Shown here: piece after piece, positions 91-32,657 of the stretch
Position numbering within the stretch: the stretch's first letter is position 1
Layout of the letters: each line of letters starts with the position of its first letter
NCBI GenBank assembly: GCA_024220505.1
Contig: JAKZZE010000002.1
Coordinates: 1-64,000, forward strand
Origin: Rhizopus arrhizus
Lineage: Eukaryota > Mucoromycota > Mucoromycetes > Mucorales > Rhizopodaceae
DNA length: 64,000 nucleotides
Direction of reading: 5' to 3'
The notes under the pieces: model-generated
Databases searched by the model: none
Seen by the model: only the letters and a program-made list of their open reading frames with translations
What the model was told of the DNA's origin: nothing
Program-made: the position numbers and the translations under genes

Positions 91-292
91 TGAGCTAAGC
101 GACCACCTTTCTTTCGCTCTTCCGACCGTTACACAAGGTAGACGACGCGTAATCAACTTTGAACTCGATTATCTCGCTCAATATAATACATCCATCAACC
201 GTTTTAACATCAAAAAATTCGCTAATTTTTTCTCTACAAACCATATTTTTTCAAGTTCATAACTCCTTTTTTTACAATTTTCGACATCTCCC

Positions 293-1272
293 ATGTCAGA
301 ACATTCCACCCTTGCTAATTTGCAAATGTCGACAAATGTCACAACTAATGTCGACATGCCCAACTCAACCGACCTCACACAAGCTGTGCAGTATCTATTA
401 AATACTGTTCAAACCCTCCAACACCGTGTTACAACACACGACGACCTCTTGGCCGAACTTACTGCATTACGCAGTGAAAACTCTACATTGAAAGCCGAGA
501 TTGCTAATCTCAAAGCTCAATTGAATGCTGCATCTGGCGAATCTGTCGCTAAGGCTACTTTTTCTGTTCCTGTCTCTTCTGTCCCTACTTCTGTGGTCGA
601 ACAAGCGCCAACTACTGTCCGCCCTACTTATAGTGCTGTTGCCGCCCGTAACACTTCCAAACCTGCGTCTAAAAAGCGTAAGCTTGCTGCCGGCCGAACT
701 TTTCAACCTGTGGATCCTACTGCACCTCGTGGATTCGAGTACTTGTACTTGAACCGTAACCGTAAGCTCACCCGCGCTGAAGTCAGACGTAATCTACGTC
801 TACTTGGTCTTGACCTCTCTCGTCTGCTCGATATCTGCTTCCCTGGCCCAAAGGTCATTGGTCTATTGGTGCACGTTCTTTACAAAGAAGGTGGTTTCTC
901 TTCTTTCTGCTGCCAAGGTTCCGTTGGTTGACGGTTTTGATCCATTGGATCCTGTCAACTTGGCGGATCCTGAGCTCCAGCATCTTTCATCGGCTGACAA
1001 GGCTAATGAATGTGCTGAGCTCCAGTTCACTCGCTGCTCCCGTGCTCTCTCTCGTCTTGGTGCTGGCCGTGCTCACCTGGTGGGTCCCATAGGTAAGTAC
1101 TTTTCTTCCAAGGGTTGGCGATGAGGACTCTTTGAGTCAGATTCTGTCTTCCCTTCCCCCTTCCTCTTTTGCTTCTCGTGGTCGTGACCCAGGCGCTGCT
1201 TTCCGTGGTGACACGGTCATGTCAGATGCTTTGGTCTCTGATTCCGCTAGTGCTGGATCACACTCATTATGA
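293..1272 (+). pseudogene. LINE ORF1, unit 1, frameshifted
   Basis: Starts at the ATG at 293. The first ~200 codons are open and show a leucine-rich coiled-coil stretch (about residues 25-85), an Ala/Ser/Thr-rich linker, the basic SKKRKL nuclear-localisation-like motif and the conserved FQPVDP..RGFEYLYLNRNRKL region. The frame is lost near 885-895 (a GAGGTGATC motif of other units reads GGTGGTTTC) and again near 1118, where ATC of GGATCGATGAG is missing or reduced. The N-terminal 60 residues differ markedly from those of units 2, 4, 5 and 6, so unit 1 carries its own ORF1 variant. The TGA stop at 1270-1272 overlaps the ORF2 ATG. Confidence 0.8.
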
Positions 1273-4200
1273 GTGAGGTCCAACACCTTTCTATAAGCCT
1301 TTGGAACGCGAATGGTCTTCGGACCACGACCGTTCATGAGGTCTTGTCTCATTGTCTCTCCTCTACTCTCCTTTTCATCACCGAGACTTGGCTTCTTTCC
1401 CCTTCTCTTCTTCCTACTGACTGGATGCAGTATCATGTGTATGGTGTTCCTGTACCTTCGGCCAACCGTGGTTCGATGGGTGTTACTGCCTGGTCTCTCC
1501 TTCTTGTCCCTTTCCTGTCTCTCAACTTCCTTCACCGAATCGGTATACCCTTTCGTTGAAGGTCGGACCCTTTCGCATTCATTGTTTGTATGTTCCTCCT
1601 CCTCTTTCCAACTCTGAATTTGTAATGTACTTTCCTCCATCCCCTCCTTACCCAATACTTTTATTTGTGGCGACTTTAATGCTCGTCTTGGTGACCTCAC
1701 TGGTGATGCATTGGTCTCTCCTCGTGGTGCTGCTATGGCTCGCTGGCTTGCTGATCGCTCCTTGACCGTTCTGAACGGCCCACTGGCTCATGGTATTCCT
1801 ACCTGGGTCGGGTTTCGTGATGATCGAGAGATGAGTAGCATCATTGACATGTTTTTAACAAACGCGTCATTGATGTCTCCTCGCCTTGACATCGCGTCTG
1901 ACTTGTCTCTTGGTTCTGACCATCGTCTCTACCTTGTCTTTTCATTTGCTCAGTCAAGTGCCTCTGAGTCTTCATCTGAATACTGATGCTACCATTCATC
2001 CTCGTCGATTTGGAACTTGTCTCGCCTTGGTGAACCTGATCCATGTCAATTGTATCAAGATACACTTTCGTTCGTCCTCTGCTCCTTTGCTTCTCAACTG
2101 AAGAGGTTGGTTCAACACCCTCCTTCTTCACGTCCGCCTATTGACGACCTCAACGCGTCGCTCAACTCAATCATCTACCGCTCTCTTGACTCTTCTGTCG
2201 GTGATCGTCCTCCTCGTCCTTCCATTGGAAAAAGTACTGGACACAACAACTAAGATGCTGCTGACTTCCGCAACAGGTGCTACCGTAGATGGCGTCGTGC
2301 CTTTGGCATCGACAAAGTCTATTGGTGGCATCAACATCAACAAGCGAATACCTCTTTCCGTCAAGCTGTGGCCAATGCCAAACGTCTGTCCTGGCAAGCA
2401 TTTTGCAAGTCTCTCGAATCTGACTTCACTAAAGCCGTTTCCAAAGTCAAGCAACTCAATCGACGACATCAGTCATCATCGTCGTTTTCCCATCCTGATG
2501 GTCCGTCTAAGGCAGTGGAGGTAATGGCTAGTCACTTGGCTTCGGTCTTTGATGGCAGTCTTCTACCTTCCACTCGCCCACCACCTCCATCATCTCATCC
2601 TCTCTTGGTTGCCTCTTGGTCTCCATGGTTCGTCTCCCTGGTTCGTCTCCTTCTGGTTCGTTTCCCTCTGGTTCCGCTGGTTCTCCTGGTCCTTCAAATC
2701 TCTCTTCGCTCCTTTAACTATTCACATGTACATCGGTCAGCTCCCTACTCGTAAAGCTCCTGGTGCTGATCACATCAAGGCCGAGATGCTCAAGCCGATC
2801 AGTACTGACCTGTCATTCATTCTTCCTGGTTCTTTACTCTATGCTATCAATGGTCCTATTTCCTTCTCTGTGGCGACATGCTCAAGTTATCCATTTCAAG
2901 AAAGGTGATTCTCACTTCCCTCAAATACCGTCCATCTCACTCACATCTGTTTCCGCAAGCTACTTGAGCTGTCGCTGTCCATGGTTGTCCTCTGTCTCTC
3001 CTCCTCTTGACCTTGCTCAAGGTGGTTTCGTCCTCGTCGATCTGCCCTGATCAGCTCTGTCCTTCATGACTATACAGTCGTATTACGTCGCTCTCATCGT
3101 TTCCTGTGGTATTCCTGGATATCAAGTCGGCCTACGATACCGTCGACCGGCGTGTTATCTGGGATGCTCTCTCTCGTTCTGGTGCTGGTTCTCTCCTTGT
3201 CTGCCTCTCTTGGTTCATCTTTTGATGATGTCTCGGTGTCTGTCTGGTGTCAAACCATTCTTCTGCTGCTTTCTCCTGTCACCGGTGTCTTGCAAGGTTC
3301 TGTTCTCAGTCCTCACTTGTACTCGGTGTACATCAACACTCTTCCTTCCCTCCTTCGTCAAGTCGCTGCTCCTGCCACCATTTGGTTCCCTCCTCTGGTT
3401 CTGCTATGCTGGTATGGTCCCAGTGAACTCTCTCCTCTTTGCTGACGATGTCGCAGTCATTGGCTCGGCAAAGTCAGTCAAAGAGATGCTCAAGCTCTGT
3501 GAAGAACACTCCCTGTCTCTTGGATATCGCTGGAATCCTCTGAAGTGCGCGGTGCTCAACCACCCCACTTCCTCTTCATCGTCATCTGGTTCAACCCAAC
3601 TAAGCTCTATGGTACTTCTCTCCCTTGGTCGACAAGTTCGTATACCTTGGTATGCCTTTCGTCAAGACTGGTCTCTCTGCTGCTTCGGTGCTTCTCTTCG
3701 TTCTCCTGGTGTGCTTCAACTATGGGTATTCTCAACAAGATTGGCGTGAATCGTCAAGGCTTTTCTCTGCTCTGTGTGCTCGGATCTATGCTACTTTGTC
3801 CGTCCAAAGTTCGAATATGGTCTCTATCTCAAGTTTACTGCAACTCAAGTCAAAGAAATAGACGTCTTCAAGACCGATGCCTTCGTATGATGGTTGGTGG
3901 TCATGCCACCTCCTCTACGTGGTCATCAACACATGACAACCTTGCCATCTATGCACCACCGCATAGATGTGCTTACAACTCGTTTCTGCCTTCGTGCCCG
4001 CTCTCTTCCTGGTTCTTGCCTGCTGTCTCTCCTGTCGTCAACGCTGCCTGTCTCTCGAATCAAGATCCATCTTGACAAGAATCCGCTCTTCTTGGCTTGC
4101 CTTCTCCTCCTCCGTCCTCCGATGCTCGGCTCAAGACCTTCTTTCGCCAGTATCGTGAGCGTCAAGTCACATCCTTGTCACCTCCACTACCCAGGTTCTC

Positions 4201-4604
4201 TTACGCGCATGTCGCCCTGCTCTGGTGGTTGATCCCATCTTATACGTTCCTGCAACCCGTGCAGAACGCTCTCTCTTGGTTCGTTGGCGTCTTGGTGGCT
4301 GCCAGGTAAGCCTGAAGACTGTCCTTGTGGCCGTGATCGTCGCTCTCGCCGTCACTTTTTCGAGTGCGATTTGATCCCGTCTTTCCTTTGGTCTGACCTT
4401 CCTCGCTGTCCTCCTGGGTCTTATCCCATTGACTTTGCTCTTTCCTCGTTGCCTCTTGGTCGCTCAGCTCGCTGTCCTCCTTGGTGGTCATCTCTCTTGT
4501 TGATGCTCTGGCATATCAACGTCTCTGCCGTCCTGATAGCTTCTATGCTATTGACTCTTCTCCTGGTGCCTTATGGTATTCTCTCTTCTCGTAACTCTGA
4601 CTGA
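1269..4604 (+). pseudogene. LINE ORF2 (endonuclease-reverse transcriptase), unit 1, multiply frameshifted
   Basis: Matches the intact ORF2 of unit 3 from its first residues (MSEVQHLSISLWNANGL) to its last (RNSD, stop at 4604), but the reading frame changes many times. Recognisable pieces in different frames include the APE motif around 1800-1930, the RKAPGADHIKAEML segment near 2750, the FADDVAV catalytic box near 3440 and the C-terminal RRSRRHF zinc-knuckle region near 4345. No functional product is possible from the sequence as given. Confidence 0.85.
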
Positions 4605-4813
4605 AACCCTTCTTTGTCTGTCTCCTACTGATCCCCCACGGAAGTAAAGCCATCAAAGTTCCTTGCCGTTGGGTTGTGACAGTAGGTCAGCTAAGTTGTG
4701 GAAGTAGGCAGTCAATCTCATCTTTTGCTTTGTCTTTTTTTTGGAGTTTTTCTGTTTCTCAGGCTCCTTTTTTTGTATCTTATTCTTTTTTTGTACTTGA
4801 AGATGCAATTAAT

Positions 4814-4824
4814 GACTTTTAGTC
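4814..4824 (+). other. 3'-terminal hairpin of the LINE, variant GACT-loop-AGTC
   Basis: Four-bp stem GACT/AGTC with a 3-base T loop, followed by GCCTGC and then the A-rich tail. Equivalent hairpins, with 4-base T loops, are at 9676-9687, 14523-14534, 19378-19389 and 24267-24278. It lies about 45 nt before each unit end, where a LINE reverse transcriptase would be expected to recognise its template. Confidence 0.5.
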
Positions 4825-5067
4825 GCCTGCAAATCTATTCCTATTAAATAAAAACAAAATCTTTAACCTGAGCTAAGCGACCACCTTTCTTTCGCTCTTC
4901 CGACCGTTACACAGGTATAGTACGCGTAATCAACTTTGAACTCAATATCTCTGCGAATACGATACATCCATCCACCGTTTTAACACCAAATAATCGTCGT
5001 ATTTTTCTCTACAACCTATATTTTTTCAACTCGATTGCTGTATTTTTCACCATTTTCGACATTTCCC

Positions 5068-6071
5068 ATGTCTCAACAATCTGGCTCCCCCATTTCGCTC
5101 ATCTCGCAAGATGGAGTTGCAAATGTCAACATTCCAAACGCTTCTGACATGCAACAAGCTTTGCAATATTTACTGCACAACTTCCAAACCCTCCAGCAAC
5201 GTGTTTCAACACACGATGACTTGTTTGCTGAACTGACTGCTTTACGCAGTGAAAATGCTACTTTGAAGGCGAAAATCGCCTCACTCGAATCTCAACTTTC
5301 CGCTGGCGCTGACGTCAACCGTTCTTCCGCTTTTCCTCTTTGGCTTCCGACCCGGTTACCATACGTGCACCCCAAGATGCACCCCAAACGAACAATGCAA
5401 CCTATAGTTCTATTGCTGCCAAGGCTGCTGCTACTACTACTACTACTACCCGTCGCCCACCTAGCAAGAAGCGAAAGCTTGCTGCTAGTCGTCCCTTCCA
5501 ACCTGTGGATCCTTCTGCTCCTCGTGGTTTTGAATACCTGTACTTGCACCGTAACCGCAAGCTGTCCCGTGCTGAAGTTAGACGCAACCTGCGTTTACTT
5601 GGTCTTGATCTTTCCCGTGTCTTGGACATTTGCTTCCCTGGCCCAAAGGCCATTGGTCTCCTGATTCATGTTCTTTACAAAGAAGAGGTGATCTCTCTTC
5701 TATCTGCTGCCAAGGTTCCGTTGGTTGACGGTTTTGATCCTCTGGATCCTATCAACTTGGCGGATCCTGAGCTCCAGCATCTCTCATCGGCCGACAAGGC
5801 TAATGAATGTGCTGAGCTCCAGTTCACTCGCTGCTCCCGTGCTCTCTCTCGTCTTGGTGCTGGTCGTGCTCACCTAGTAGGTCCCATAGGTAAGTACTTT
5901 TGTTCCAAGGGTTGGCTGGATGACGATTCTTTGAGTCAGATTCTGTCCTCCCTTCCCCCTTCCTCTTTTGCTTCTCGTGGTCGTGACCCAGGCGCTGCTT
6001 TCCGTGGTGACACGGTCATGTCAGATGCTTTGGTCTCTGATTCCGCTAGTGCTGGATCACACTCATTATGA
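5068..6071 (+). pseudogene. LINE ORF1, unit 2, one frameshift
   Basis: ATG at 5068 (MSQQSGSPISLISQDG). The frame is lost near 5332 where a run of five T in units 5 and 6 is four T here; it continues in the next frame to the TGA at 6069-6071. Restoration would need only one base, so this could be a recent lesion or a homopolymer sequencing error. The downstream half (SKKRKL motif, RRNLRLLGLDL, ICFPGPKAIGLL) is intact. Confidence 0.85.
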
Positions 6072-9000
6072 GTGAGGTCCAACACCTTTCTATAAGCCTT
6101 TGGAACGCGAATGGTCTTCGGACCACGACCGTTCATGAAGTCCTGTCTCATTGCTTATCCTCCACACTCCTTTTTATTACCGAAACTTGGCTTCTTTCCC
6201 CTTCTCTCCTTCCTACTGACTGGATGCAGTATCATGTGTATGGTGTTCCTGTACCTTCGGCCAACCGTGGTTCGATGGGTGTTACTGCTCTGGTCTCTCC
6301 TTCTTGTCCCTTTCCTGTCTCTCAACTTCCTTCAGCGAATCGGTATACCCTTTCGTTGAAGGTCGGACCCTTTCGCTTTCATTGTTTGTATGTTCCTCCT
6401 CCTCTTTCCAACTCTGAATTCATTGATGTACTCTCCTCCATTCCTTCTCTCCCCAATACTTTATTTGTGGCGACTTTAATGCTCGTCTTGGTGACCTCAC
6501 TGGTGATGCATTGGTCTCTCCTCGTGGTGCTGCTATGGCTCGCTGGCTTGCTGATCACTCCTTGACCGTTCTGAACGGCCCACTGGCTCATGGTATTCCT
6601 ACCTGGGTCGGGTTTCGTGATGATCGAGAGATGAGTAGCATCATTGACATGTTTTTAACCAACGCGTCATTGATGTCTCCTCGCCTTGACATCGCGTCTG
6701 ACTTGTCTCTTGGTTCTGATCATCGTCTACTTACGCTGTCATTTTCCTTTGCTCAGTCAAGTGCCTCTGAGTCATTGTCTGATACATCTGATGCTACTAT
6801 TCATCCCCGTCGACTATGGAACTTGTCTCGCCTTGGTGAACCTGATCCATGTCAGCTGTATCAAGATACCTTTCGCTCGTCATCTGCCCCATTGCTTTCT
6901 CAACTGAAGAGGTTGGTTCAACACCCTCCTTCTTCATGTCCACCTATTGACGACCTCAACGCGTCGCTCAACAACATAATCTACAGGTCTCTTGACTCTT
7001 CTGTCGGTGATCGTCCTCCTCGTCCTTCGCATTGGAAAAAGTACTGGACACAACAACTCCAAGATGCTGCTGACTTTCGTAACAGGTGCTACCGTAGATG
7101 GCGTCGTGCCTTTGGTATTGACAAAGTCTATTGGTGGCATCAACATCAACAAGCAAACACTTCTTTTCGTCAAGCTGTGGCCAATGCCAAACGTCTCTCT
7201 TGGCAAGCATTTTGCAAGTCCCTCGAATCTGACTTTACGAAGGCCATATCTAAAGTCAAGCAACTCAAACAACGACATCAGTCATCATCGTCGTTCTCAC
7301 ATCCTGATGGTCCGTCTAAGGCAGTGGAGGTAATGGCTAGTCACTTGGCTTCGGTCTTTGATGGCAGTCTTCTACCTTCCACTCGCCCATCACCACCTCC
7401 ATCTCCATCCTCTCTTGGTTTGCCTCTTGGTCTCCATGGTTCATCTCCTTCTGGTACGTCTCCCCCTGGTATGTCTCCTTCTGGTTCCTCTGGTCCTCCT
7501 GGTTCAAGTCAGTCTTTATTCAGTCCTTTAACAATACATATGTATATCGGCCAGCTCCCTACTCGTAAAGCTCCTGGTGCTGATCACATCAAGGCCGAGA
7601 TGCTCAAGCCGATCAGTACTGACCTCTCCCACTTGCTGTCTTGGTTCTTTTCCTTGTGCTGTCAATGGTCCTACGTTCCTTCCCTCTGGCGGCATGCTCA
7701 AGTCTATCCGATCTTCAAGAAAGGTGATCCTTCGCTGCCGTCCAACTATCGACCCATCTCACTGACCTCGGTGTTTAGAAAGCTCCTTGAGCTTAGTCTT
7801 GCTCCATGGCTCGCCTCGGTGTCTCCTCGACTTGATCTTGCTCAAGGTGGCTTTCGTCCTCGTCGCTCAGCTCTTGATCAAGCCTTATGTCTTCATGAGC
7901 TGATGCAGTCCTATTATCGTCGCTCACATCGGTTTCCTGTGGTTGCATTCCTGGATATCAAGTCGGCCTACGATACCGTCGACCGGCGTGTTATCTGGGA
8001 TGCTCTCTCTCGCTCTGGTGCTGGTTCGTCTCCTTGTCTGCCACTCTTGGTCCATCTCTTTGATGATGTCTCGGTGTCTGTCTTGGTGTCCAACCATTCT
8101 TCTGCTGCTTTCTCTCCTGTCACCGGTGTCTTGCAAGGTTCTGTTCTCAGTCCTCACTTGTACTCGGTGTACATCAATACATTACCTGCTCTCCTCCGTC
8201 AAGTCGCTGCTCCTGCCACCCATTTGGTTCCCTCCTCTGGTTCTCCTGATGCTGGTATGGTCCCAGTTAACTCTCTCCTCTTTGCTGATGATGTCGCAGT
8301 CATTGGCTCGGCAAAGTCAGTCAAAGAGATGCTCAAGCTCTGTGAAGAACACTCACTGTCTCTTGGTTATCGATGGAATCCTCTAAAGTGTGCGGTGCTC
8401 AACCACCCCACTTCCTCTTCATCGTCATCTGGTTCAACCCAACTAAAACTCTATGGTACTCCGCTTCCTTTGGTCGACAAGTTCGTATACCTTGGTATGC
8501 CTTTCGTCAAGACTGGTCTCTCTGCTGCTTCGGTGCTTCCTCTTCGTTCTCCTGGTGTCCTTCAACTGATGGGTATTCTCAACAAGATTGGTGTAAACCG
8601 TCAAGGCTTTTCTCTTCTCTTGTGTGCTCGGATCTATGCTACTTTTGTCCGTCCAAAATTCGAATATGGTCTCGCCATTTCCAAGTTTTCTGCTGCTCAA
8701 GTTAAAGAAATTGACCGCTTACAAGACCGATGCCTTCGTATGATGGTAGGTGGTCATGCCACCTCCTCTACATTGGTCATCAAACACATGACAACATTGC
8801 CATCTATGCACCACCGCATAGATGTGCTTACAACTCGTTTCTGCCTTCGTGCCCGCTCTCTTCCTGGTTCTTGCCTGCTGTCTCTCCTGTCGTCAACGCT
8901 GCCTGTCTCTCGAATCAAGATCCATCTTGACAAGAATCCGCTCTTCTTGGCTCTGCCTTCTCCTCCTCCGTCCTCCGATGCTCGGCTCAAGACCTTCTTT

Positions 9001-20642: not shown

Positions 20643-23600
20643 GTGAGGTCCAACACCTTTCTATAAGCCTTTGGAACGCGAATGGTCTTCGGACCACGAC
20701 CGTTCATGAGGTCTTGTCTCATTGTCTCTCCTCTACTCTCCTTTTCATCACCGAGACTTGGCTTCTTTCCCCTTCTCTTCTTCCTACTGACTGGATGCAG
20801 TATCATGTGTATGGTGTTCCTGTACCTTCGGCCAACCGTGGTTCGATGGGTGTTACTGCTCTGGTCTCTCCTTCTTGTCCCTTTCCTGTCTCTCAATTTC
20901 CTTCACCGAATCGGTATACCCTTTCGTTGAAGGTTGGACCCTTTCGCATTCATTGTTTGTATGTTCCTCCTCCTCTTTCCAACTCTGAATTTGTAAATGT
21001 ACTCTCCTCCATACCCTCCTTACCCAATACTTTTATTTGTGGCGACTTTAATGCTCGTCTTGGTGACCTCACTGGTGATGCATTGGTCTCTCCTCGTGGT
21101 GCTGCTATGGCTCGCTGGCTTGCTGATCACTCCTTGACCGTTCTGAACGGCCCACTGGCTCATGGTATTCCTACCTGGGTCGGGTTTCGTGATGATCGAG
21201 AGATGAGTAGCATCATTGACATGTTTCTAACAAACGCGTCATTGATGTCTCCTCGCCTTGATATCGCGTCTGACTTGTCTCTTGGTTCTGACCATCGTCT
21301 GCTGACCTTGTCTTTCTCATTTGCTCAGTCAAGTGCCCCTGGGTCATTGTCTGAAACATCTGATGCTACCATTCATCCTCGTCGATTATGGAACTTGTCT
21401 CGCCTTGGTGAACCTGATCCATGTCAGCTGTATCAAGATACATTTCGCTCGTCATCTGCTCCATTGCTTTCTCAACTGAAGAGGTTGGTTCAACACCCTC
21501 CTTCTTCACGTCCGCCTATTGACGACCTCAACGCGTCGCTCAACTCAATCATCTACCGCTCTCTTGACTCTTCTGTCGGTGATCGTCCACCTCGTCCATC
21601 CCATTGGAAAAAGTACTGGACGCAACAACTTCAAGATGCTGCTGACTTCCGCAACAGGTGCTACCGTAGATGGCGTCGTGCCTTTGGCATCGACAAAGTC
21701 TATTGGTGGCATCAACATCAACAAGCGAATAGTTCTTTCCGTCAAGCTGTTGCCACTGCCAAACGTCTCTCTTGGCAAGCATTTTGCAAGTCCCTCGAAT
21801 CTGACTTTACGAAAGCCATCTCTAAAGTAAAACAACTCAAACGTCGTCACCTCACCTCATCATCATTCACTCATCCTGATGGTCCGGCTACGGCAGTGGA
21901 AGTAATGGCTCGTCACTTGGCTTCTGTTTATGATGGTCACTTGCTTCCATCTGTCCGTCCGCCTGCTCCTCCTGATCCGTCTTCTCTTGGTTTGCCCTTT
22001 GGTCCTCCTGGTTCGTCTCCTTTGGTTGTCTCCCCTGGTGCTGCTACTCATACTTCTATGTCTAATACTCATTCCACTCATTTCAACACTTCAATATTCT
22101 CGCCTGCAACATTGGCTTTACTTATCGGTCAACTGCCTACGCGCAAAGCTCCTGGTGCTGATCACATCAAGGCCGAGATGCTCAAGCCGATCAGTACTGA
22201 CCTGTCATTCCTTCTTTCCTGGTTCTTTACACTCTGCTGTCAATGGTCCTATGTTCCTTCTCTGTGGCGACATGCTCAAGTTTATCCCATTTTCAAGAAA
22301 GGTGATTCATCACTTCCCTCAAACTACCGTCCGATCTCACTCACATCTGTATTCCGCAAGCTACTTGAGCTGTCGCTGTCTCCATGGTTGTCCTCTGTCT
22401 CTCCTCCTCTTGACCTTGCTCAAGGTGGTTTCCGTCCTCGTCGGTCTGCTCTGGATCAGGCTCTATGCCTACATGAACTGATACAATCGTACTACCGTCG
22501 CTCCCATCGGTTTCCTGTGGTGGCATTCCTGGATATCAAGTCGGCCTACGATACCGTCGACCGGCGTGTTATCTGGGATGCTCTCTCTCGCTCTGGTGCT
22601 GGTTCCTCTCCTTGTTTGCCTCTCTTGGTCCATCTCTTTGATGATGTCTCGGTGTCTGTCTTGGTGTCAAATCACTCGTCCGCTCCTTTTTCTCCTGTCA
22701 CCGGTGTCTTGCAAGGTTCTGTTCTCAGTCCTCACTTGTACTCGGTGTACATCAATACATTACCTTCCTTACTTCGTCAAGCTGCTGCTCCTGCTACTCA
22801 TTTGGTTCCCTGCTCTGGTTCTGCTGCTGCTGGTATGGTCCCAGTCAACTCTCTCCTCTTTGCTGACGATGTCGCAGTCATTGGCTCGGCAAAGTCAGTA
22901 AAAGAGATGCTCAAGCTTTGTGAAGAACATTCGCTGTCTCTGGGTTATCGATGGAACCCAACAAAATGTGCGGTGCTCAACCACCCACCATCATCGTCTT
23001 CCTCGTCTTCTCTTCCGTCTTTGTCTGATCGCCTCCAGTTGTACGGTACTCCTCTGCCTTTGGTGGATGAGTTCGTATACCTTGGAGTGCCCTTCGTCAA
23101 GTCTGGTCTCTCTGCTCCTTCCTTGGTTTCTCTTCGGTCTCCTGGTGTCCTCAAGGTCATGGCTATTCTAAACAAGATTGGTGTCAACCGTCAAGGTTTC
23201 TCTCTGCTGCTCTGCTCTCGACTGTATGCTACCTTTGTTCGCCCGAAGTTTGAGTATGGCCTAGCCATATCTCGGCTGACGGCAACTGATCTCAAGTCTA
23301 TAGAAAATCTACAAGATCGCTGTCTCCGTCTCTTGGTTGGTGGTCATCGTACCTCTTCTACCACCATTATCAAGCATCTCACTACTTTGCCATCTATGCG
23401 TCATCGTGTAGATGTGCTTACAACTCGCTACTGTCTTCGTGCTCGTTCTCTTCCTGCTTCTTGCCTGCTGTCTCTCTTGTCATCAACGCTTCCAGTGTCA
23501 CTAATCAAGATCCATCTTGAAAAGAATCCGCTCTTCTTGGCTCTGCCTTCTCCTCTTCCGTCCTCCGATGCTCGGCTCAAGACCTTCTTTCGCCAGTATC

Positions 23601-24055
23601 GTGAGCGTCAAGTCACTTCACTCGTCACCTCCACTACCCAGGTTCTCTTACGCGCATGTCGCCCTGCTCTGGTGGTTGATCCCATCTTATACGTTCCTGC
23701 TACTCGTGCAGAACGCTCTCTCTTGGTTCGTTGGCGTCTTGGCTGGCTGCCAGGTAAGCCTGAAGATTGTCCTTGTGGACGTGATCGTCGCTCTCGCCGT
23801 CACTTCCTCGAGTGTGATTTGATCCCGTCCTTCCTTTGGTCTGATCTGCCTCGCTGTTCTCCTGGGTCCTACCCTATAGACTTTGCTCTTTCCTCGTTGC
23901 CTCTTGGTCGCTCAGCTCGCTGTCCTCCTTGGTGGTCTTCCCTGCTTCTTATGCTTTGGCATATACAACGTCTCTGCCGTCCTGATAGCTTCTATGCTAT
24001 TGATTCTTCTCCTGGTGCCTCTTGGTATTCTAGCTCTTCTCGCAACTCTGACTGA
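20639..24055 (+). CDS. LINE ORF2: APE endonuclease-reverse transcriptase, unit 5 (intact, longer linker)
   Basis: 1138 residues, eleven more than units 3 and 4. The extra residues lie in two variable places: the linker before the RT, which reads SSLGLPFGPPGSSPLVV and continues with a Thr/Ser/His-rich stretch, and the Ser-rich insertion after the RT active site (SSSSSSSLPSLSDRLQ). Around them the endonuclease and RT cores match the other units, with FLDIKSAYD, LQGSVLSP and FADDVAV intact and the C-terminal zinc knuckle present. Open from the ATGA overlap to the TGA at 24055. Confidence 0.93.
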   Translation: MSEVQHLSISLWNANGLRTTTVHEVLSHCLSSTLLFITETWLLSPSLLPTDWMQYHVYGVPVPSANRGSMGVTALVSPSCPFPVSQFPSPNRYTLSLKVGPFRIHCLYVPPPLSNSEFVNVLSSIPSLPNTFICGDFNARLGDLTGDALVSPRGAAMARWLADHSLTVLNGPLAHGIPTWVGFRDDREMSSIIDMFLTNASLMSPRLDIASDLSLGSDHRLLTLSFSFAQSSAPGSLSETSDATIHPRRLWNLSRLGEPDPCQLYQDTFRSSSAPLLSQLKRLVQHPPSSRPPIDDLNASLNSIIYRSLDSSVGDRPPRPSHWKKYWTQQLQDAADFRNRCYRRWRRAFGIDKVYWWHQHQQANSSFRQAVATAKRLSWQAFCKSLESDFTKAISKVKQLKRRHLTSSSFTHPDGPATAVEVMARHLASVYDGHLLPSVRPPAPPDPSSLGLPFGPPGSSPLVVSPGAATHTSMSNTHSTHFNTSIFSPATLALLIGQLPTRKAPGADHIKAEMLKPISTDLSFLLSWFFTLCCQWSYVPSLWRHAQVYPIFKKGDSSLPSNYRPISLTSVFRKLLELSLSPWLSSVSPPLDLAQGGFRPRRSALDQALCLHELIQSYYRRSHRFPVVAFLDIKSAYDTVDRRVIWDALSRSGAGSSPCLPLLVHLFDDVSVSVLVSNHSSAPFSPVTGVLQGSVLSPHLYSVYINTLPSLLRQAAAPATHLVPCSGSAAAGMVPVNSLLFADDVAVIGSAKSVKEMLKLCEEHSLSLGYRWNPTKCAVLNHPPSSSSSSSLPSLSDRLQLYGTPLPLVDEFVYLGVPFVKSGLSAPSLVSLRSPGVLKVMAILNKIGVNRQGFSLLLCSRLYATFVRPKFEYGLAISRLTATDLKSIENLQDRCLRLLVGGHRTSSTTIIKHLTTLPSMRHRVDVLTTRYCLRARSLPASCLLSLLSSTLPVSLIKIHLEKNPLFLALPSPLPSSDARLKTFFRQYRERQVTSLVTSTTQVLLRACRPALVVDPILYVPATRAERSLLVRWRLGWLPGKPEDCPCGRDRRSRRHFLECDLIPSFLWSDLPRCSPGSYPIDFALSSLPLGRSARCPPWWSSLLLMLWHIQRLCRPDSFYAIDSSPGASWYSSSSRNSD

Positions 24056-24288
24056 AACCCTTCTTTGTCTGTCTCCTGCTGATCCCCCACGGAAGTAAAG
24101 CCATCAAAGTTCCTTACCGTTGGGTTGTGACAGTAGGTCAGCTAAGTTGTGGAAGTAGGCAACAAATCTGATCTTTTTACTTTATCTTTTTTTTGGAGTT
24201 TTTCTGTTTCTCAGGCTCCTTTTTTTGTACTTATTCTTTTTTCTTTGTACTTGAAGATGCAACAATGACTTTTTAGTCGCCTGCAATA

Positions 24289-25930
24289 TACAGTGGGTCA
24301 AAAAACTGCACCAACCTAACCTAATTTTTCGGAAATAAGAGCATAGGTCTGTCAGTTTTATAGCAAACATTATGAAACTTGAACCAAACAAAGTTAATAC
24401 TATTATGATTTATTGACAAAACTTTCAAAGTCAGAAGCTGAGTATACACTTAAAGCGAGCCCAGAAAAAAGCGGAGGTCGGTTGGTGCAGTTTTTTGACT
24501 TTCTTAAAATCGAGTGGATCCACCCTTTTCTGCTAATACTGCTTGTATTCTGGCGGGCAAATTGTCTATATATTTGATGCATTGTTTCTTAGTAAACGAA
24601 TTCCATTCATTTTCGGCTCTTTCCCGCAGTTCATGGATGCTGGTCGCCCTATTATCATACATGCTCAGCTTTAGCTTCAAATGATGCCATACATGTTCAA
24701 CAGGATTAAGATCTGGACTTTGTGATGGTCAATCGTCAATGTAAACCATGCCCCTATCTTTCATTCATTGCGTTGTGAACTTTGATCGATGTTTACGATC
24801 ATTGTCGTGCTGAAATACCGATGGTTTCCAATTCAGACCATAGTACTTCATGGTGTCCTTCAGACTTGTAGCAAGAATTTCTTGGTATAGCTCTGAATTC
24901 ATGGTACCATCATAGACCTGACATGCGTATCCAGGTCGTGCGCTGGTTATACAACCCCATAACATGAGACCGCCGCCTCCATGCTTCACAGTAACGTCGA
25001 TATGGTGGGGCTGTAAACGATCGCATTTTTTCTTCCAATAATATTTGCAACCATCTGAGCCCCAAATGTTAATTTTGGTCTCACCAGAAAATAGCACACG
25101 TCGCCAATCATGTACTGTCCAGTATTGATGCTTTTTTGCCCATGTCAATCGAGCCTTCTTATGCTTTTCAGCCAATAATGGCTTCTTCTTTTTGATCTCA
25201 GCATAAATTTCAACTGAATGTAAAACATTAATGGCCGATTGATACGACATAGGGTGTCCAAGCTCCTCCAACTTCATTTGAACATCCTTGGCAGTCTTCC
25301 AGTAACCCGTGAGTACTTGTCTCTTGATGTATCGACGCGCTGATTTTGCCACAATGCTCGATTTATCTCCGCTTTTACGTATTCTATTATGCATCCAGTT
25401 ATTTGCATACCTATTAACGGTATTTCTATGCACTCAAACTCGTTTCCCAATGACTGTGGGGTCAACGCTATCTTCCAATAGTGGTTTGATACTGTTTTGA
25501 ACATCGAATGGAACCGTTTTGGGCATTTCTAATGATGGATAGACACTGGCGATGTATGATGCGTTTGGGTAAAGTAGGAAAGAAAGAAAAAAGGAAAATA
25601 ATTGCAAAAAAGTTTATTTTAAGATCCCCAGTGTGACTACATACTCCACAGACTAATTTATATCTGCCGGAATGGCCTCAGTCCGGGCATATAGTGTCAA
25701 ACCCACTTTTATTTTAAAAGTCAAAAAACTGCACCAACCGACCTCCGCTTTTTTCTGGGCGCGCTTTAAGTGTATACTCAGCTACTGACTTTGAAATTTT
25801 TGTCAATAAATTATAATAGTATTAACTTTGTTTGGTTCAAGTTTCATAATGTTTGCTATAAAACTGACAGACCTATGCTCTTATTTCCGAAAAATTAGGT
25901 TAGGTTGGTGCAGTTTTTTGACCCACTGTA
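24289..25930 (-). mobile_element. Tc1/mariner transposon with 213-bp inverted repeats, inserted in LINE unit 5
   Basis: Element 24291-25928 flanked by a TA duplication (24289-24290 and 25929-25930). The ends are CAGTGGGTCAAAAAACTGC and its reverse complement. The terminal inverted repeats are about 213 bp (24291-24503 and 25717-25928). Within each repeat the terminal ~20-mer (TCAAAAAACTGCACCAACC) occurs a second time at the inner edge in opposite orientation, so each end can itself fold back. The unit 5 sequence on both sides rejoins the expected LINE tail when the element is removed. Transposase is on the minus strand and is broken. Confidence 0.93.
24504..25526 (-). pseudogene. Tc1/mariner transposase, broken by three TGA stops
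   Basis: 340-codon frame from ATG at 25526 (MPKTVPFDVQ) to TAA at 24504, the usual size for Tc1 transposases. It has an N-terminal helix-turn-helix region (TVIGKRV..HRNTVNRYAN), a second HTH, and the DDE catalytic domain. Three in-frame TGA stops interrupt it, at 25434-25436, 24765-24767 and 24729-24731; each can come from one C-to-T type change (CGA or TGG to TGA). The first catalytic Asp is also lost: the motif reads FSGETK where the family has FSDE/FSDETK. The second (QHDND) and third (DLNPVEHVW) acidic positions remain. The element can only move, if at all, with enzyme from elsewhere. Confidence 0.9.
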
Positions 25931-25964
25931 TCTTCGTAATTAAATAAAAACAAAATCTTTAACC

Positions 25965-26451
25965 TGAGCTAAGCGACCTAGTTCGACCCCTGATAGGATC
26001 TTCGGATCTATCCCTTCCCTGCCCCTCTACATGTTCTCTTTGCCGAGTGCATCAAGCACTTTTGTTTCTCCGCCTGTGTGTTGCGTTGCGTAGCAGCTGA
26101 GCATCTGTCTACTTTCCTTCCCTTTCGGGGGACTTTGGTGTGCGCTCTTGATGATAATACTGGTTTTAACGCCACTGCTGTTCTGGTCGGTTGGTCTGCG
26201 TTGGTTGTTTGTCGAGCGTTGTTGGTCCGCGGTGCCGGGATGCCCAGCCCGGGCTTAATGAAGCGCGTTCTGTTCTGCCTCAAGTCTTCGTCTCTGGCTC
26301 CAGCTCCCCCCAATATTAATTCGTTCCTTCTTTCTTCCTTTCCCTCCTCCCCCATAATAGTTTGTATGCTTTCCAGTTTATCACTGTGGATAGCAATAAT
26401 GACATATTTGTCGCCTGCATATTATCCAATAAAATATAAAAATCTTTAACC
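25965..26451 (+). mobile_element. 487-bp non-coding array unit, candidate SINE-like partner of the LINE
   Basis: Begins with the same TGAGCTAAGCGACC as every LINE unit and ends with a 3' hairpin, a CGCCTGC box and an A-rich tail followed directly by the next unit start. Between these ends the sequence is unrelated to the LINE, richer in G and C, and has no convincing protein frame. Near the 5' end is GTTCGACCCC (25981-25990), which resembles a tRNA-type B box, and a small stem GATC-TTCG-GATC (about 26000). The 3' hairpin differs in bases from the LINE hairpin but keeps pairing. The simplest reading is a short non-autonomous element copied by the LINE machinery because it shares the 3' signal. 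Confidence 0.55.
26401..26412 (+). other. 3'-terminal hairpin of the short element, variant GACA-TATT-TGTC
   Basis: Four-bp stem GACA/TGTC with a TATT loop, preceded by AAT and followed by GCCTGC as in the LINE. Compared with the LINE (GACT/AGTC) the fourth pair is A-T in place of T-A, a compensatory change. Confidence 0.5.
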
Positions 26452-26654
26452 TGAGCTAAGCGACCACCTTTCTTTCGCTCTTCCAACCGTTACACAAGGT
26501 ATAGTACGCGTAATCAACTTTGAACTCAAATATCTCTGCGAATACGATACATCCATCCACCGTTTTAACACCAAAATAATCGTCGTATTTTTCTCTACAA
26601 ACTATATTTTTTTCAACTCGATTGCTCTATTTTTCATCATTTTCGACATTTCCC

Positions 26655-27659
26655 ATGTCTCAACAATCTGGTTCCCCCATTTCGCTCATCTCGCAAGATG
26701 GAGTGGCAAATGTCAACATTACAAACCCTTCTGACATGCAACAAGCTTTGCAATATTTATTGCACAACTTTGAAACCCTCCAGCAACGTGTTTCAACACA
26801 CGATGACTTATTTGCTGAACTGACTGCTTTACGCAGTGAAAACGCTACTCTGAAGGCGAAAATCGCCTCACTCGAATCTCAACTCTCCGCTGGCGCTGAC
26901 GTCAACAGTTCTTCCGCTTTTTCCTCTTTGGCTTCCGACCCGGCTACCATACGTGCGCCCCAAGATGCACCCCAAATGAACAAAGTAACCTATAGTTCTA
27001 TTGCTGCCAAGGCTGCTGCTACTACTGCTACTACTACCCGTCGCCCACCTAGCAAGAAGCGAAAGCTTGCTGCTAGTCGCCCATTCCAACCAGTTGACCC
27101 TTCTGCTCCTCGTGGTTTCGAATACCTGTACTTGCATAGAAACCGCAAGCTGTCCCGTGCTGAAATTAGACGCAACCTGCGTTTACTTGGTCTTGATCTT
27201 TCCCGTGTTTTGGACATCTGCTTTCCTGGCCCAAAGGCCATTGGTCTCCTGATCCATGTTCTTTACAAAGAAGAGGTGATCTCTCTTCTTTCTGCTGCCA
27301 AGGTTCCGTTGGTTGACGGTTTCGATCCTTTGGATCCTGTCAACTTGGCGGATCCTGAGCTCCAGCATCTTTCATCGGCTGACAAGGCTAATGAATGTGC
27401 TGAGCTCCAGTTCACTCGCTGCTCCCGTGCTCTCTCTCGTCTTGGTGCCGGTCGTGCTCACCTGGTGGGCCCCATTGGTAAGTACTTTTGTTCTAAGGGT
27501 TGGATCGATGACGACTCTTTGAGTCAGATTCTGTCTTCCCTTCCCCCTTCCTCTTTTGCTTCTCGTGGTCGTGACCCAGGCGCTGCTTTCCGTGGTGACA
27601 CGGTCATGTCAGATGCTTTGGTCTCTGATCCCGCTAGTGCTGGATCACACTCATTATGA
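26655..27659 (+). CDS. LINE ORF1 protein, unit 6
   Basis: 334 residues from the ATG at 26655, open to the TGA at 27657-27659. It combines the N-terminal coiled coil of unit 4 (FETLQQRV) with the linker of unit 5 (SSLASDPATIRAPQ), another sign of exchange among units. The SKKRKL motif and C-terminal domain are unchanged. Confidence 0.85.
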   Translation: MSQQSGSPISLISQDGVANVNITNPSDMQQALQYLLHNFETLQQRVSTHDDLFAELTALRSENATLKAKIASLESQLSAGADVNSSSAFSSLASDPATIRAPQDAPQMNKVTYSSIAAKAAATTATTTRRPPSKKRKLAASRPFQPVDPSAPRGFEYLYLHRNRKLSRAEIRRNLRLLGLDLSRVLDICFPGPKAIGLLIHVLYKEEVISLLSAAKVPLVDGFDPLDPVNLADPELQHLSSADKANECAELQFTRCSRALSRLGAGRAHLVGPIGKYFCSKGWIDDDSLSQILSSLPPSSFASRGRDPGAAFRGDTVMSDALVSDPASAGSHSL

Positions 27660-30317
27660 GTGAGGTCCAACACCTTTATATAAGCCTTTGGAACGCGAAT
27701 GGTCTTCGGACCACGACCGTTCATGAAGTCCTGTCTCATTGTCTCTCCTCTACACTCCTTTTTATCACCGAGACTTGGCTTCTTTCCCCTTCTCTCCTTC
27801 CTACAGACTGGATGCAATATCATGTGTATGGTGTTCCTGTACCTTCGGCCAACCGTGGTTCGATGGGTGTTACTGCTCTGGTCTCTCCTTCTTGTCCCTT
27901 CCCTGTCTCTCAACTTCCTTCACCGAATCGGTATACCCTTTCGTTGAAGGTCGGACCCTTTCGCATTCATTGCTTGTATGTTCCTCCTCCTCTTTCTAAC
28001 TCTGAATTTATTAATGTACTCTCTTCCATCCCCTCATTACCCAATACTTTCATTTGTGGCGACTTTAATGCTCGTCTTGGTGACCTCACTGGTGATGCAT
28101 TGGTCTCTCCTCGTGGCGCTGCTATGGCTCGCTGGCTTGCTGATCGCTCCTTGACCGTTCTGAACGGCCCACTGGCTCATGGTATTCCTACCTGGGTAGG
28201 GTTTCGTGATGATCGAGAGATGAGTAGCATCATTGACATGTTTTTAACAAACGCGTCATTGATGTCTCCTCGCCTTGACATCGCGTCTGACTTGTCTCTT
28301 GGTTCTGACCATCGTCTACTCACGTTGTCATTCTCATTTGCTCAGTCAAGTGCCTCTGAGTCTTCATCTGATACTCCTGATTTCACTCTACATCCTCGTC
28401 GACTATGGAACTTGTCTCGCCTTGGTGAACCTGATCCATGTCAGCTGTATCAAGATACTTTTCGTTCGTCCTCTGCTCCTTTGCTTTCTCAACTGAAAAG
28501 GTTGGTTCAACACCCTCCTTCTTCACGTCCGCCAATTGACGACCTCAACGCGTCGCTCAACTCAATCATCTACCGCTCTCTTGACTCTTCTGTCGGTGAT
28601 CGTCCACCTCGTCCATCCCATTGGAAAAAGTACTGGACGCAACAACTTCAAGATGCTGCTGACTTCCGCAACAGGTGCTACCGTAGATGGCGTCGTGCCT
28701 TTGGCATTGACAAAGTCTATTGGTGGCATCAACACCAACAAGCAAATGTTTCCTTTCGTCAAGCTGTGGCCAATGCCAAACGTCTGTCCTGGCAAGCATT
28801 CTGCAAGTCCCTTGAGTCTGACTTTACTAAAGCCATCTCAAAAGTAAAGCAACTCAAACGTCGTCACCTCACTTCATCCTCATTCACTCATCCTGATGGT
28901 CCGGCTACGGCAGTGGAAGTAATGGCTCGTCACTTGGCTTCTGTCTATGATGGTCACTTGCTTCCATCTGTCCGCCCGCCTTCTCCTCCTGATCCGTCTT
29001 CTCTTGGTTTGCCCTTTGGTCCTCCTGGTTCGTCTCCTTTGGTTGTCTCTTCTGGTGCTGCTGCTCAAATTCTTACATCTACTGCTCATTCCGCTCATTT
29101 CAACACTTCAATATTCTCGCCTGCAACATTGGCTTCACTTATCGGTCAACTGCCTACGCGCAAAGCTCCTGGTGCTGATCACATCAAGGCCGAGATGCTC
29201 AAGCCGATCAGTACTGACCTGTCATTCATTCTTTCCTGGTTCTTCACTCTATGCTATCAATGGTCCTATGTTCCTTCTCTGTGGCGACATGCTCAAGTTT
29301 ATCCCATTTTCAAGAAAGGTGATTCATCACTTCCCTCAAACTACCGTCCAATCTCACTCACATCTGTATTCCGCAAGCTACTTGAGCTGTCGCTGTCTCC
29401 ATGGTTGTCCTCTGTCTCTCCTCCTCTTGACCTTGCTCAAGGTGGTTTCCGTCCTCGTCGGTCTGCTCTGGATCAGGCTCTATGCCTACATGAACTGATA
29501 CAATCGTACTACCGTCGCTCCCATCGGTTTCCTGTGGTGGCATTCCTGGATATCAAGTCGGCCTACGATACCGTCGACCGGCGTGTTATCTGGGATGCTC
29601 TCTCTCGCTCTGGTGCGTCAAGTCCGTTCCTGTCTCTCTTGGTCCATCTGTTTGATGATGTCTCGGTGTCTGTCTTGGTGTCCAATCACTCGTCCGCTCC
29701 TTTTTCTCCTGTCACCGGTGTCTTGCAAGGTTCTGTTCTCAGTCCTCACTTGTACTCGGTGTACATCAATACATTACCTACTCTCCTTCGTCAAGTCGCT
29801 GCTCCTGTCACTCATTTGGTTCCTTCCTCTGGTTCTGCTGATGCTGGTATGGTCCCAGTGAACTCTCTCCTCTTTGCTGACGATGTCGCAGTCATTGGCT
29901 CGGCAAAGTCAGTCAAAGAGATGCTCAAGCTATGTGAACAACATTCGCTGTCTCTGGGTTATCGATGGAACCCTACAAAATGTGCGGTGCTCAACCACCC
30001 ACCATCATCTTCTTCCTCGTCCGATCGCCTCCAGTTATATGATACTCCTCTGCCTTTGGTGGATGACTTCGTATATCTTGGAGTGCCCTTCGTCAAGTCT
30101 GGTTTCTCTGCTCCTTCTTTGGTTTCTCTCCGGTCTCCTGGTGTCATCAAGGTTATGGCTATCCTGAACAAGATTGGTGTCAATCGTCAAGGTTTCTCTC
30201 TTTTGCTCTGCTCACGCATCTATGCCACCTTTGTTCGCCCGAAGTTTGAGTATGGCCTAGCCATATCTCGGCTGACGGCAACCGACCTCAAATCTATAGA
30301 AAATCTGCAAGATCGCT

Positions 30318-30616
30318 TGTGGAATAGGCGTGTTGTTTCTCTCGATTAATAAAATTAACAATAAATCAAATAATCGATGAGTCTCTTGAACCTCTTTATT
30401 GAGTAAGGACGAGAGAGAGAGCCCATTCAATATAAACTACGTCTTAGAATATAACAATATGATTTAGGGTCCGAGGTAGTACGGTATAAATTGTGTGGGC
30501 TGTTTATCGTACATAGCACGAAGTGCTATATATGATATACAGTCAAATTATTAATTTTAAGAATCTTTTGAGTGATCTCACACGACATTAAGGAAATTAT
30601 TAGAGTAAATACGACA
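30318..30616 (-). mobile_element. Solo LTR, 299 bp, minus orientation
   Basis: Bounded by TG..CA with a 5-bp target duplication TCGCT (30313-30317 and 30617-30621). Read on the minus strand it begins TGTCGTATTTAC, contains an AATAAAGAGG polyadenylation-like motif near its end and finishes ATTCCACA. Removing it restores the LINE ORF2 frame. It was left by recombination between the two LTRs of an LTR retrotransposon. Confidence 0.88.
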
Positions 30617-30664
30617 TCGCTGTCTTCGTCTCTTGGTTGGTGGTCATCGTACCTCTTCTACCAC

Positions 30665-31060
30665 TGTGGTATTTACACATATAATAAAGTAATACTGTAA
30701 ATTACTACGAGCAATGATCATCCAAATTAGGAATATCGGACATTGTATTATGCCACGTCAAATAAAATCATATCCCGATCCACTCCAGAATATTCTAACA
30801 AGTTCCTGAATCAGGATTAATAATTACTTCTTGATAAAAGATGTTAAACAATACCAATCATATAATTAACGCATCGTCTAATATCGATTAATAATCAATA
30901 ATCATATACTGTGACTACTATTATTTAGCCGTGGATAGAAAAGTATAAATACCCTCATATTTTTAACTTGAATAAAGGACAATCTACTTTGAGTCTCACT
31001 TATTTTTATATTTGTTGATTGACCTAGTACTTTTTTATATTATAAACCCTAAATATCACA
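30665..31060 (+). mobile_element. Solo LTR, 396 bp, plus orientation
   Basis: Begins TGTGGTATTTAC and ends AAATATCACA, so the terminal 10 bases are near-perfect inverted repeats. The 5-bp target duplication is ACCAC (30660-30664 and 31061-31065). It contains AGTATAAATACC, a TATA-like box, and GAATAAAGG, a polyadenylation-like motif. Its first bases resemble those of the neighbouring solo LTR, suggesting related families, but the bodies differ. Confidence 0.88.
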
Positions 31061-31313
31061 ACCACCATTATCAAGCACATTACAACACTGCCATCTATGC
31101 GTCATCGTGTAGATGTGCTTATCACCCGTTACTGTCTTCGTGCTCGCTCTCTCCCTGGTTCCTGCTTGCTATCTCTGCTGTCAACAACGCTACCTGTCTC
31201 TCGTATCAAGGTTCATCTTGAAAAGAATCCGCTCTTCTTGGCTCTGCCTTCTCCTCCTCCGTCCTCCGATGCTCGGCTCAAGACCTTCTTTCGCCAGTAT
31301 CGTGAGCGTCAAG

Positions 31314-32196: not shown

Positions 32197-32201
32197 CGCA
32201 C

Positions 32202-32606: not shown

Positions 32607-32657
32607 TTTTTTTTGACGAATTCTCTTTACTCTATTATTACTACGCTATTCTCAAAC

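Follow-up and report, generated by a model that had tools for sequence, protein, structure and literature searches.

Head-to-tail LINE arrays in Rhizopus arrhizus and their probable origin by antisense insertion into tRNA genes

The first 64 kb of contig 12 (C12) of a Rhizopus arrhizus genome assembly (GCA_024220505.1, contig JAKZZE010000002.1, positions 1 to 64,000; hereafter the window) begin within a head-to-tail array of long interspersed nuclear elements (LINEs) that carries the 14-mer TGAGCTAAGCGACC at its joints. Our analysis traces this 14-mer to the front of a tRNA gene, and indicates that LINEs with an apurinic/apyrimidinic (AP)-type endonuclease, together with short interspersed nuclear elements (SINEs), very probably insert antisense into tRNA genes, rebuild the gene in doing so, and pile up head to tail. 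All evidence is sequence comparison within this one assembly (50.26 Mb in 41 contigs, given C-numbers; individual genomic loci whose flanks were examined have L-numbers), and genome-wide pattern counts were paired with a reversed-pattern control. At that level, the comparison establishes the insertion site, its orientation, the target-site duplication (TSD), the intact tRNA, the truncated copies and the separate ancestry of the units.

Results

The joint sequence and the front of tRNA-Ile

TGAGCTAAGCGACC is the reverse complement of nucleotides (nt) 1-14 of tRNA-Ile(AAU); a comparison with tRNA segments had been proposed in an earlier reading of the window made from sequence alone. In copies elsewhere, ...GCGTTATTAGCACCACGCTCTAACCAAC before TGAGCTAAGCGACC constitutes an antisense tRNA-Ile(AAU) gene, in agreement with ARAGORN. 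The exact 14-mer occurs 95 times genome-wide (reversed control 0), and these 95 form an unbiased set: 76 follow CTTTAACC, five follow one-base variants of that tail, five follow tail B (TTCGAC) of a different retroelement family, and the remaining nine are in intact tRNA-Ile genes, leaving 86 of 95 directly after a retroelement tail. Because all 95 are accounted for, every exact 14-mer in the assembly is either tRNA nt 1-14 or a joint. The earlier argument that random insertion would not give such arrays is right. The joint itself (CTTTAACC followed by TGAGCTAAGCGACC) was found 76 times (reversed-pattern control 0), with 75 clustered on C3, C9, C12, C14, C18, C24 and C31; the remaining one, on C41, adjoins a tRNA-Ala joint. 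A genome search with tRNA-Ile gave 11 matches, comprising nine identical intact genes, one partial match on C18 (67/74 nt), and one 85% match that is tRNA-Val by ARAGORN.

The 97 Ile, Ala, Pro and Thr 14-mers whose flank was read, mostly chosen via joint or tRNA searches, were all preceded by the rest of the tRNA or by a retroelement tail, and ARAGORN identified intact tRNAs at element 5′ ends. Judged from these comparisons, the 14-mer is a TSD of the tRNA gene and not part of the element. The notion of an element-specific junction was therefore abandoned, as the 14-mer is the tRNA-Ile TSD and the first 14 nt of other tRNAs stand at other targets; targeting of a short repeated site, one of the options that had been offered, proved correct, the site being a tRNA gene.

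The array in the window

The 14-mer is exact at seven window sites (91, 4869, 9733, 14579, 19435, 25965 and 26452), which border six LINE units and one SINE. The layout is as follows, with open reading frames abbreviated as ORFs.

1-90, plus strand: 3′ end of a different retroelement family (family B, tail B, ...TTTCGAC), one of seven family-B matches (C12:1-91)
91-104, plus strand: TSD, exact match to the reverse complement of tRNA-Ile(AAU) nt 1-14
105-4868, plus strand: LINE unit 1, at the contig edge, both ORFs interrupted, many small indels
4869-4882, plus strand: TSD, exact 14-mer
4883-9732, plus strand: LINE unit 2
9733-9746, plus strand: TSD, exact 14-mer
9747-14578, plus strand: LINE unit 3, ORF2 at 10928-14311
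14579-14592, plus strand: TSD, exact 14-mer
14593-19434, plus strand: LINE unit 4, ORF1 at 14782-15786, ORF2 at 15783-19166
19435-19448, plus strand: TSD, exact 14-mer
19449-25964, plus strand: LINE unit 5, ORF1 at 19638-20642, ORF2 at 20639-24055, the ORF1 stop and ORF2 start overlapping as ATGA
24291-25932, minus strand: Tc1-like DNA transposon of 1.64 kb in the 3′ untranslated region of unit 5, with inverted terminal repeats that match each other and PF01498 HTH_Tnp_Tc3_2 in 24765-25433, minus strand
25965-25978, plus strand: TSD, exact 14-mer
25979-26451, plus strand: SINE1 copy without the tRNA-like head, its last bases those of the LINE
26452-26465, plus strand: TSD, exact 14-mer
26466-31313, plus strand: LINE unit 6, broken after 30267, with a further piece at 31070-31313 and the 3′ end missing

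A window search allowing up to 2 mismatches returned 12 matches (shuffles: mean 0.16, maximum 2, 0/100 reaching 12); the five additional matches (reverse strand, 2 mismatches) lie towards the ends of units 1-5 and have no bearing on the joints. The tandem array described in the sequence-only reading is real and its joints have no spacer, with the qualification that the sixth LINE is broken. The A-rich tail said always to precede the 14-mer does so at six of the seven joints (AAAATCTTTAACC directly before the site), and site 91 instead follows the other tail, ...CATAAATTTCGAC. Rfam and ARAGORN scans of the window gave no matches at all, as expected if only 14 nt of a tRNA lie in it.

The LINE, the SINEs and family B

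The LINE is a site-specific non-LTR retrotransposon: endonuclease and reverse transcriptase (RT) lie in one ORF, there is no long terminal repeat (LTR), copies share one target position with a TSD, and 5′-truncated copies keep an unchanged 3′ end. ORF2 of units 4, 5 and 6 (those scanned) matched AP-type endonuclease and RT profiles (Pfam PF14529/PF03372 and PF00078), the endonuclease being upstream of the RT; no restriction-like endonuclease was detected in ORF2 by Pfam at E 0.001, and ORF1 gave no confident Pfam family match. The ORF2 motifs TETW, GDFN, SDH and FADD are presumably the catalytic motifs. The nearest proteins to ORF2 were from Rhizopus (R. stolonifer, 85% identity along its whole length; R. 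arrhizus, 94% over part), and proteins of Mucor species matched it at ~50% identity. Among PDB sequences the top two matches were 8gh6 and 8ibw ('Reverse transcriptase-like protein'), which we take to be R2 of Bombyx, followed by human L1 ORF2p with similar E-values. No locus related to ORF2 came out of a scan of viral contigs. Divergence and ORFs were compared in 19 of 22 extracted units, among them the partial units win_6 and C12b_4; C5_last, C34_last and C23_2 were excluded, since LINE sequence fills only part of the 4.85 kb before their tails (apparent distance to the other units 35-56%). Both ORFs are open in 8 of the 19 units, which as sequence fits recent activity.

The SINEs share the LINE 3′ end, and complete SINE1 heads, which are tRNA-like, were found in L025, L063 and L082. 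On C3 and C14 the order is tRNA-Ile, 14-mer, family-B element, 14-mer, LINE. A short family-B element lies between two TSDs at C3:1635624-1635801 (163 bp) and C14:1062441-1062617 (162 bp), beside tRNA-Ile at these two loci and probably also at window 1-90; a small element and a repeated truncation point are the suggested alternatives for these copies. A LINE with two different fused heads (...GCCGAGA joined to TTCCGACCG...) is common to C41 and C24 (L017 5293-5870; L038), and because the fused head is on both contigs this chimaeric copy has spread.

Tails and off-target copies

AAAATCTTTAACC was found 109 times genome-wide (reversed control 5), and 100 listed sites were followed up. By coordinates, 91 of these continue with TGAGCTA, and the nine without it are all LINE or SINE tails by eye, three of them at a tRNA-Pro 14-mer and one at a tRNA-Thr 14-mer. 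CTTTAACCTGAGCTA occurs 98 times, made up of 76 Ile joints, 19 Ala joints and three with changed 14-mers. Copies with random flanks and full 5′ starts had been named as the observation that would overturn site-specific joining; when they were looked for, 95 of the 100 listed AAAATCTTTAACC tails continued with TGAGCTA or with the tRNA-Pro or tRNA-Thr 14-mer, and none of the 100 was recognised as a full-length copy in random flanks. Units truncated at different 5′ points and with normal joints are present at C3:1662285, C11:67270 and C11:54664.

Targets other than tRNA-Ile and their occupancy

Of the nine intact tRNA-Ile genes, seven are directly joined at nt 1 to an element, which at C24:212087 is only a short SINE-like head. 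The first 14 nt of tRNA-Ala(AGC), TGAGCTACATCCCC, form a further 19 joints genome-wide (control 0), and every tRNA-Ala gene found (11/11) has an element right after nt 1: LINE heads, SINE heads or 5′-truncated pieces in nine, and only a ~10-nt SINE-like head before another insertion in two (C34 and C29). All seven tRNA-Pro(AGG) genes found were likewise occupied (four by SINE3, two by LINE heads of another family, one by SINE1), a SINE is inserted at tRNA-Thr(CGT), and a family-B copy on C3 lies at a tRNA-Phe 14-mer. A genome search with RF00005 (63 scored of 2878 candidates) supplied 20 other tRNAs, picked across score classes and not at random; five had a LINE-type head ≤9 nt from nt 1, two had a SINE2-like head, and one had a possible disrupted head. 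As far as sequence tells, the 14-mer at a joint follows the target and not the element. Elements start exactly at tRNA nt 1 on C3, C4, C5, C8, C9, C11, C12, C14, C17, C20, C22-C24, C29, C31, C32, C34, C40 and C41, some contigs having several such starts.

This last observation bears on the proposal that the arrays are pericentromeric LINE clusters like those of Grem-LINE1 in Mucor, the tRNA link being secondary. Such clusters would accord with the ~50% identity of Mucor proteins to ORF2, with the crowding of Grem-LINE1 in pericentric regions described in excerpts of PMC7377519, and with the position of several array tRNAs in opposed pairs. Elements beginning exactly at tRNA nt 1 on many contigs, and several times on some, are poorly explained in this way, and we regard the proposal as very improbable beside insertion into tRNA genes. 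The tRNA-Ile and tRNA-Ala genes of arrays often form opposed pairs separated by 7-80 kb, in some cases with similar flanks (C24:133669/212087, C9:1147995/1161758, C11:54664/67270 and C25:412839/420230), which are possibly inverted duplications or centromere-like regions.

Independent insertion of neighbouring units

Window unit 3 (C12:9747) differs by 4 and 6 substitutions from C9:1171486 and C12:768959, respectively. These three copies, which include C9 unit 3, are 4 to 6 substitutions apart over 4.8 kb (0.1%), with ≤2 gap events; they occupy three loci on two contigs, each with other neighbours, the two C12 loci lying 759 kb apart, and their direct LINE neighbours are 12.8-14.0% different. 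Neighbouring units diverge by 4.8-14.0% in the window, 6.7-13.9% on C9, 9.7-15.3% on C14, and 7.6-12.8% at C12:769-805 kb, and of the compared units the one nearest to window unit 2 (2.2%) stands at a tRNA-Ala gene. Within the arrays, LINEs alternate with SINEs and with truncated units. Since near-identical copies are at distant loci, neighbours are divergent, and truncated units have normal joints, sequence comparison shows the units to be independent insertions with separate ancestry. Unequal exchange, or tandem duplication of one insertion, had been put forward and would give the uniform head-to-tail order, but it misfits neighbours that differ by 4.8-15.3% over four arrays while near-identical copies are at other loci, as well as the alternation of LINE, SINE and truncated units; we consider it highly improbable.

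That the arrays are an artefact of assembly is the least probable explanation and would be quite exceptional, given mostly different flanks, unit orders and TSDs at >20 tRNA loci; flank sequence is shared by the two C25 loci and likewise by the two C24 loci. In its favour are the contig ends (an array at the start of C12, a LINE at the end of C14, and C13 and C18 ending 1.6 kb and 1.1 kb beyond the last joint) and the many small indels in unit 1.

Several copies begin with 5-8 nt that belong to a foreign TSD: CGACC (the end of the Ile 14-mer) at a C17 tRNA-Ala site, CGACCGACC at the first of two Ile-joined units in the C41 tRNA-Ala array, and AAGAACGC (the end of the tRNA-Gly 14-mer) in a copy in a C8 tRNA-Pro site. 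These bits lead us to infer that the LINE RNA may begin 5-8 nt within the TSD and that copies pass from one isotype to another. The same copies, together with the two C41 units joined by an Ile TSD, the first of which begins with CGACCGACC, could be claimed for template jumping or reverse transcription of a read-through multi-unit RNA, by which several units would be inserted at once. Template jumping would not place the 14-mer of the local target between units, as is seen in the 19 Ala-locus joints with the Ala 14-mer, and the Ile joints found include a single one in an Ala array (C41). This option of the earlier reading is thus unlikely as a general account, and at most a minor contributor, as in the C41 array.

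Proposed mechanism and growth of the arrays

Insertion is antisense, between tRNA nt 14 and 15 in box A, and the element starts at nt 1. We propose target-primed reverse transcription into the tRNA gene, antisense to the tRNA, and infer the nick order, the priming and the way in which the tRNA gene is recognised. The coding strand would be nicked after A14 in box A, and the freed ...AGCTCA-3′OH would prime copying of the LINE RNA tail. The cut in the second strand would fall precisely at the start of the tRNA gene, ahead of nt 1, and leave a 14-bp TSD identical to its nt 1-14. One copy of this TSD stays joined to tRNA nt 15 onward, regenerating the target; the tRNA gene on the LINE 5′ side is complete because the TSD supplies nt 1-14, and only its upstream flank is changed. 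As tRNA promoters are internal, the rebuilt gene should stay transcribable. The next insertion would enter the same tRNA gene, between the tRNA and the previous element, with one TSD per joint, and elements would accumulate head to tail with the youngest nearest the tRNA.

The direction of growth was assessed from a DNA-transposon end (CACTGCA followed by AATAAT or CCCAATC), which 12 of 49 tRNA flanks carry at 54-59 bp from nt 1 of the tRNA. The same end is found 55-59 bp after 12 of the 65 internal joints with ≥75 bp of flank (by isotype, 11/19 Ala, 1/44 Ile and 0/2 Pro joints), and the 55-59 bp filler varies, including SINE1, SINE2, a headless SINE and a truncated LINE. A control count over the window plus twenty contig stretches of 2-10 kb (~0.5 Mb for the two strands together) found the end seven times: five at such joints, one at the far end of one of those insertions, and one elsewhere. 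More than one transposon layer is present at C11, C9, C17 and C23. The simplest reading is that transposon-marked joints once adjoined the tRNA and were then pushed away by later insertions, which suggests array growth at the tRNA.

The transposon is tRNA-linked, with its end (CACTGCAAATAAT or CACTGCACCCAATC) at a fixed distance of 54-59 bp upstream of nt 1 in the flanks L030, L076, L077, L083, L092, L100, L106-L108, L112, L114 and L115. Two other repeated starts lie 9-12 bp upstream of tRNA nt 1, of the GACGAAGTCGGATTT type in 4/49 flanks (L030, L033, L110 and L114) and GAGAAATGGTATAGTAGG in 2/49 (L084 and L105). An age order from divergence alone was dropped, as C9 units 1 and 3 both have very close relatives: for unit 1 there is a relative on C24 at 99% over 2.27 kb (40 of 206 candidates scored), and unit 3 has relatives at 0.1%.

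The spacing of this transposon also bears on a different account, in which the element recognises its own tail/TSD joint and new copies enter at any internal TSD. It predicts the same joints, the tail end CTTTAACC resembles tRNA-Ile before the cut (CTCTAACCAAC), and very young copies are in third position in the window and on C9. Twelve of the 65 internal joints, however, keep the transposon at 55-59 bp, the spacing of real tRNA genes, which is expected if these joints were once beside a tRNA; with 11 of the 12 at tRNA-Ala loci, this argument is weak for the Ile arrays. The tail is less like the tRNA-Ala flank (CTCTACCATT), yet Ala arrays form. Own-joint targeting is therefore an account with perhaps a modest chance of being right, and own-joint insertion may take place at times.

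Several observations weigh against insertion at tRNA genes as a complete account. Five of the nine AAAATCTTTAACC tails without TGAGCTA fall outside it: three are at 14-mers without an identified tRNA match (TGGACCATTGAGGA and TTAACCATCCGCGC were assigned no identity) and two are at sites without tRNA likeness. One of these two non-tRNA copies is a ~840-bp 5′-truncated LINE with a perfect 14-16-bp direct repeat at both ends; as this off-target copy has its own repeat, the ~14-bp stagger comes with the element. No direct repeat was found in the other copy, a remnant. The C28 tail sits in a LINE remnant. Two intact tRNA-Ile genes on C25 have no recognised element, 12 of the 20 other tRNA genes sampled have none at nt 1, and on C18 the LINE joins after tRNA-Ile nt 8, with nt 1-7 lost and the gene damaged. 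The C41 array mixes Ala and Ile TSDs, from which it follows that some exchange or multi-unit copying occurs, and the SINE at L064 has different 14-mers at its two ends. As to growth at the tRNA, 53 of the 65 internal joints are without the transposon and the evidence is almost wholly from tRNA-Ala loci; divergence gives no order with the youngest at the tRNA, the near-identical copies being unit 3 in the window and on C9 and unit 1 at C12:768959. For the window array itself, the tRNA gene expected upstream would be off the contig, as C12 starts in the array. On balance, sequence comparison points to tRNA genes as a strong but not absolute preference.

Other features of the window

A Ty3/gypsy-type LTR element with a chromodomain adjoins the array end (32201-38000, ORF at 32595-37520), and the sequence just before its ORF recurs after it by eye. 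A weak zf-RVT match at 61857-62522 (E 0.0018, below the cut-off) is perhaps the end of another LINE.

Discussion

On a broader view, which we hold with less assurance but think somewhat better supported than not, several LINE families with an AP endonuclease form a guild with tRNA-headed SINEs, and its members use at least the Ile, Ala, Pro and Thr tRNA genes, and probably those for Lys, Met, Phe and Gly, as landing pads that are never exhausted. The TSD from the box-A cut would be the missing gene front, and the arrays would be time-ordered, youngest at the tRNA, with fixed-distance DNA transposons marking the layers. Site-specific mobile elements usually spoil their target or exhaust the free targets; here the TSD itself would be the repair, and by this cut geometry occupancy can reach every gene found of an isotype (11/11 tRNA-Ala, 7/7 tRNA-Pro) without gene loss. 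Gene-rebuilding insertion would explain long head-to-tail LINE arrays, would imply an endonuclease whose target, in tRNA box A, can be defined, and may make the arrays readable as records of insertion time.

Site-specific LINEs are represented by R1/R2 in 28S rDNA and SART/TRAS in telomeric repeats, and R1 leaves a 14-bp TSD and can form tandems. The target of these elements is a repeat array, whereas the present one is a dispersed tRNA gene that is rebuilt. Among tRNA-specific LINEs, NeSL-1_TV is presumably from Trichomonas vaginalis, as we take TV to indicate. The relevant excerpts of PMC4640811, the nearest prior art, describe NeSL-related LINEs specific to tRNA genes, namely NeSL-1_TV (tRNA-Pro) and the planarian families LIN15_SM (tRNA-Arg) and LIN25_SM (tRNA-Glu). 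Like the present LINE they are sequence-specific and insert inside tRNA genes; NeSL is a restriction-like-endonuclease group, whereas the present LINE is AP-type, has a Mucorales fungus as host, uses several isotypes, and has a gene-rebuilding TSD. The same source describes Utopia and Keno as site-specific LINEs in a small RNA gene (U2 snRNA), one Utopia family being occasionally tandem and Keno having an AP-like endonuclease; Utopia differs in its U2 target, its restriction-like endonuclease, and its absent or 20-bp TSD.

Dp_NLTR-A of Dictyostelium purpureum and TRE5/TRE3 of D. discoideum are likewise non-LTR elements at tRNA genes as harmless sites, and NLTR-A lies 2-6 bp upstream of the mature tRNA sequence (PMC5911963, PMC5006619, in excerpt). 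Dictyostelid elements land at a distance (2-6, ~50 or ~100 bp) over a range of positions, and their type is marked by recognition through contacts of the ORF1 protein with TFIIIB. The present LINE inserts at a single base position within the gene (nt 14/15), and its 14-bp TSD consists of tRNA sequence. PMC5006619 uses neither 'tandem' nor 'head-to-tail'. Dada DNA transposons similarly occupy fixed places in tRNA genes, some with the TSD TAGCTC in the A box, and differ as DDE DNA transposons with 6-7 bp TSDs (PMC3706591, in excerpt). Grem-LINE1 of Mucor shares with the present LINE the Mucorales host, two ORFs with AP endonuclease and RT in ORF2, and clustering, and is described by its pericentric position in PMC7377519. 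According to a 2018 review, the targets of fungal retrotransposons, LINEs included, have yet to be fully worked out. Searches of an open-access library for the present habit in Rhizopus or Mucoromycota, or for LINEs that target tRNA genes under other wordings, turned up no description of it. Against these systems, LINEs specific to tRNA genes are known as such, and four traits look new: the type of endonuclease, the place of its cut, a TSD that rebuilds the gene, and the habit of forming arrays. Arrays that mix LINEs with SINEs, and two isotypes with an element at each gene found, are also distinctive.

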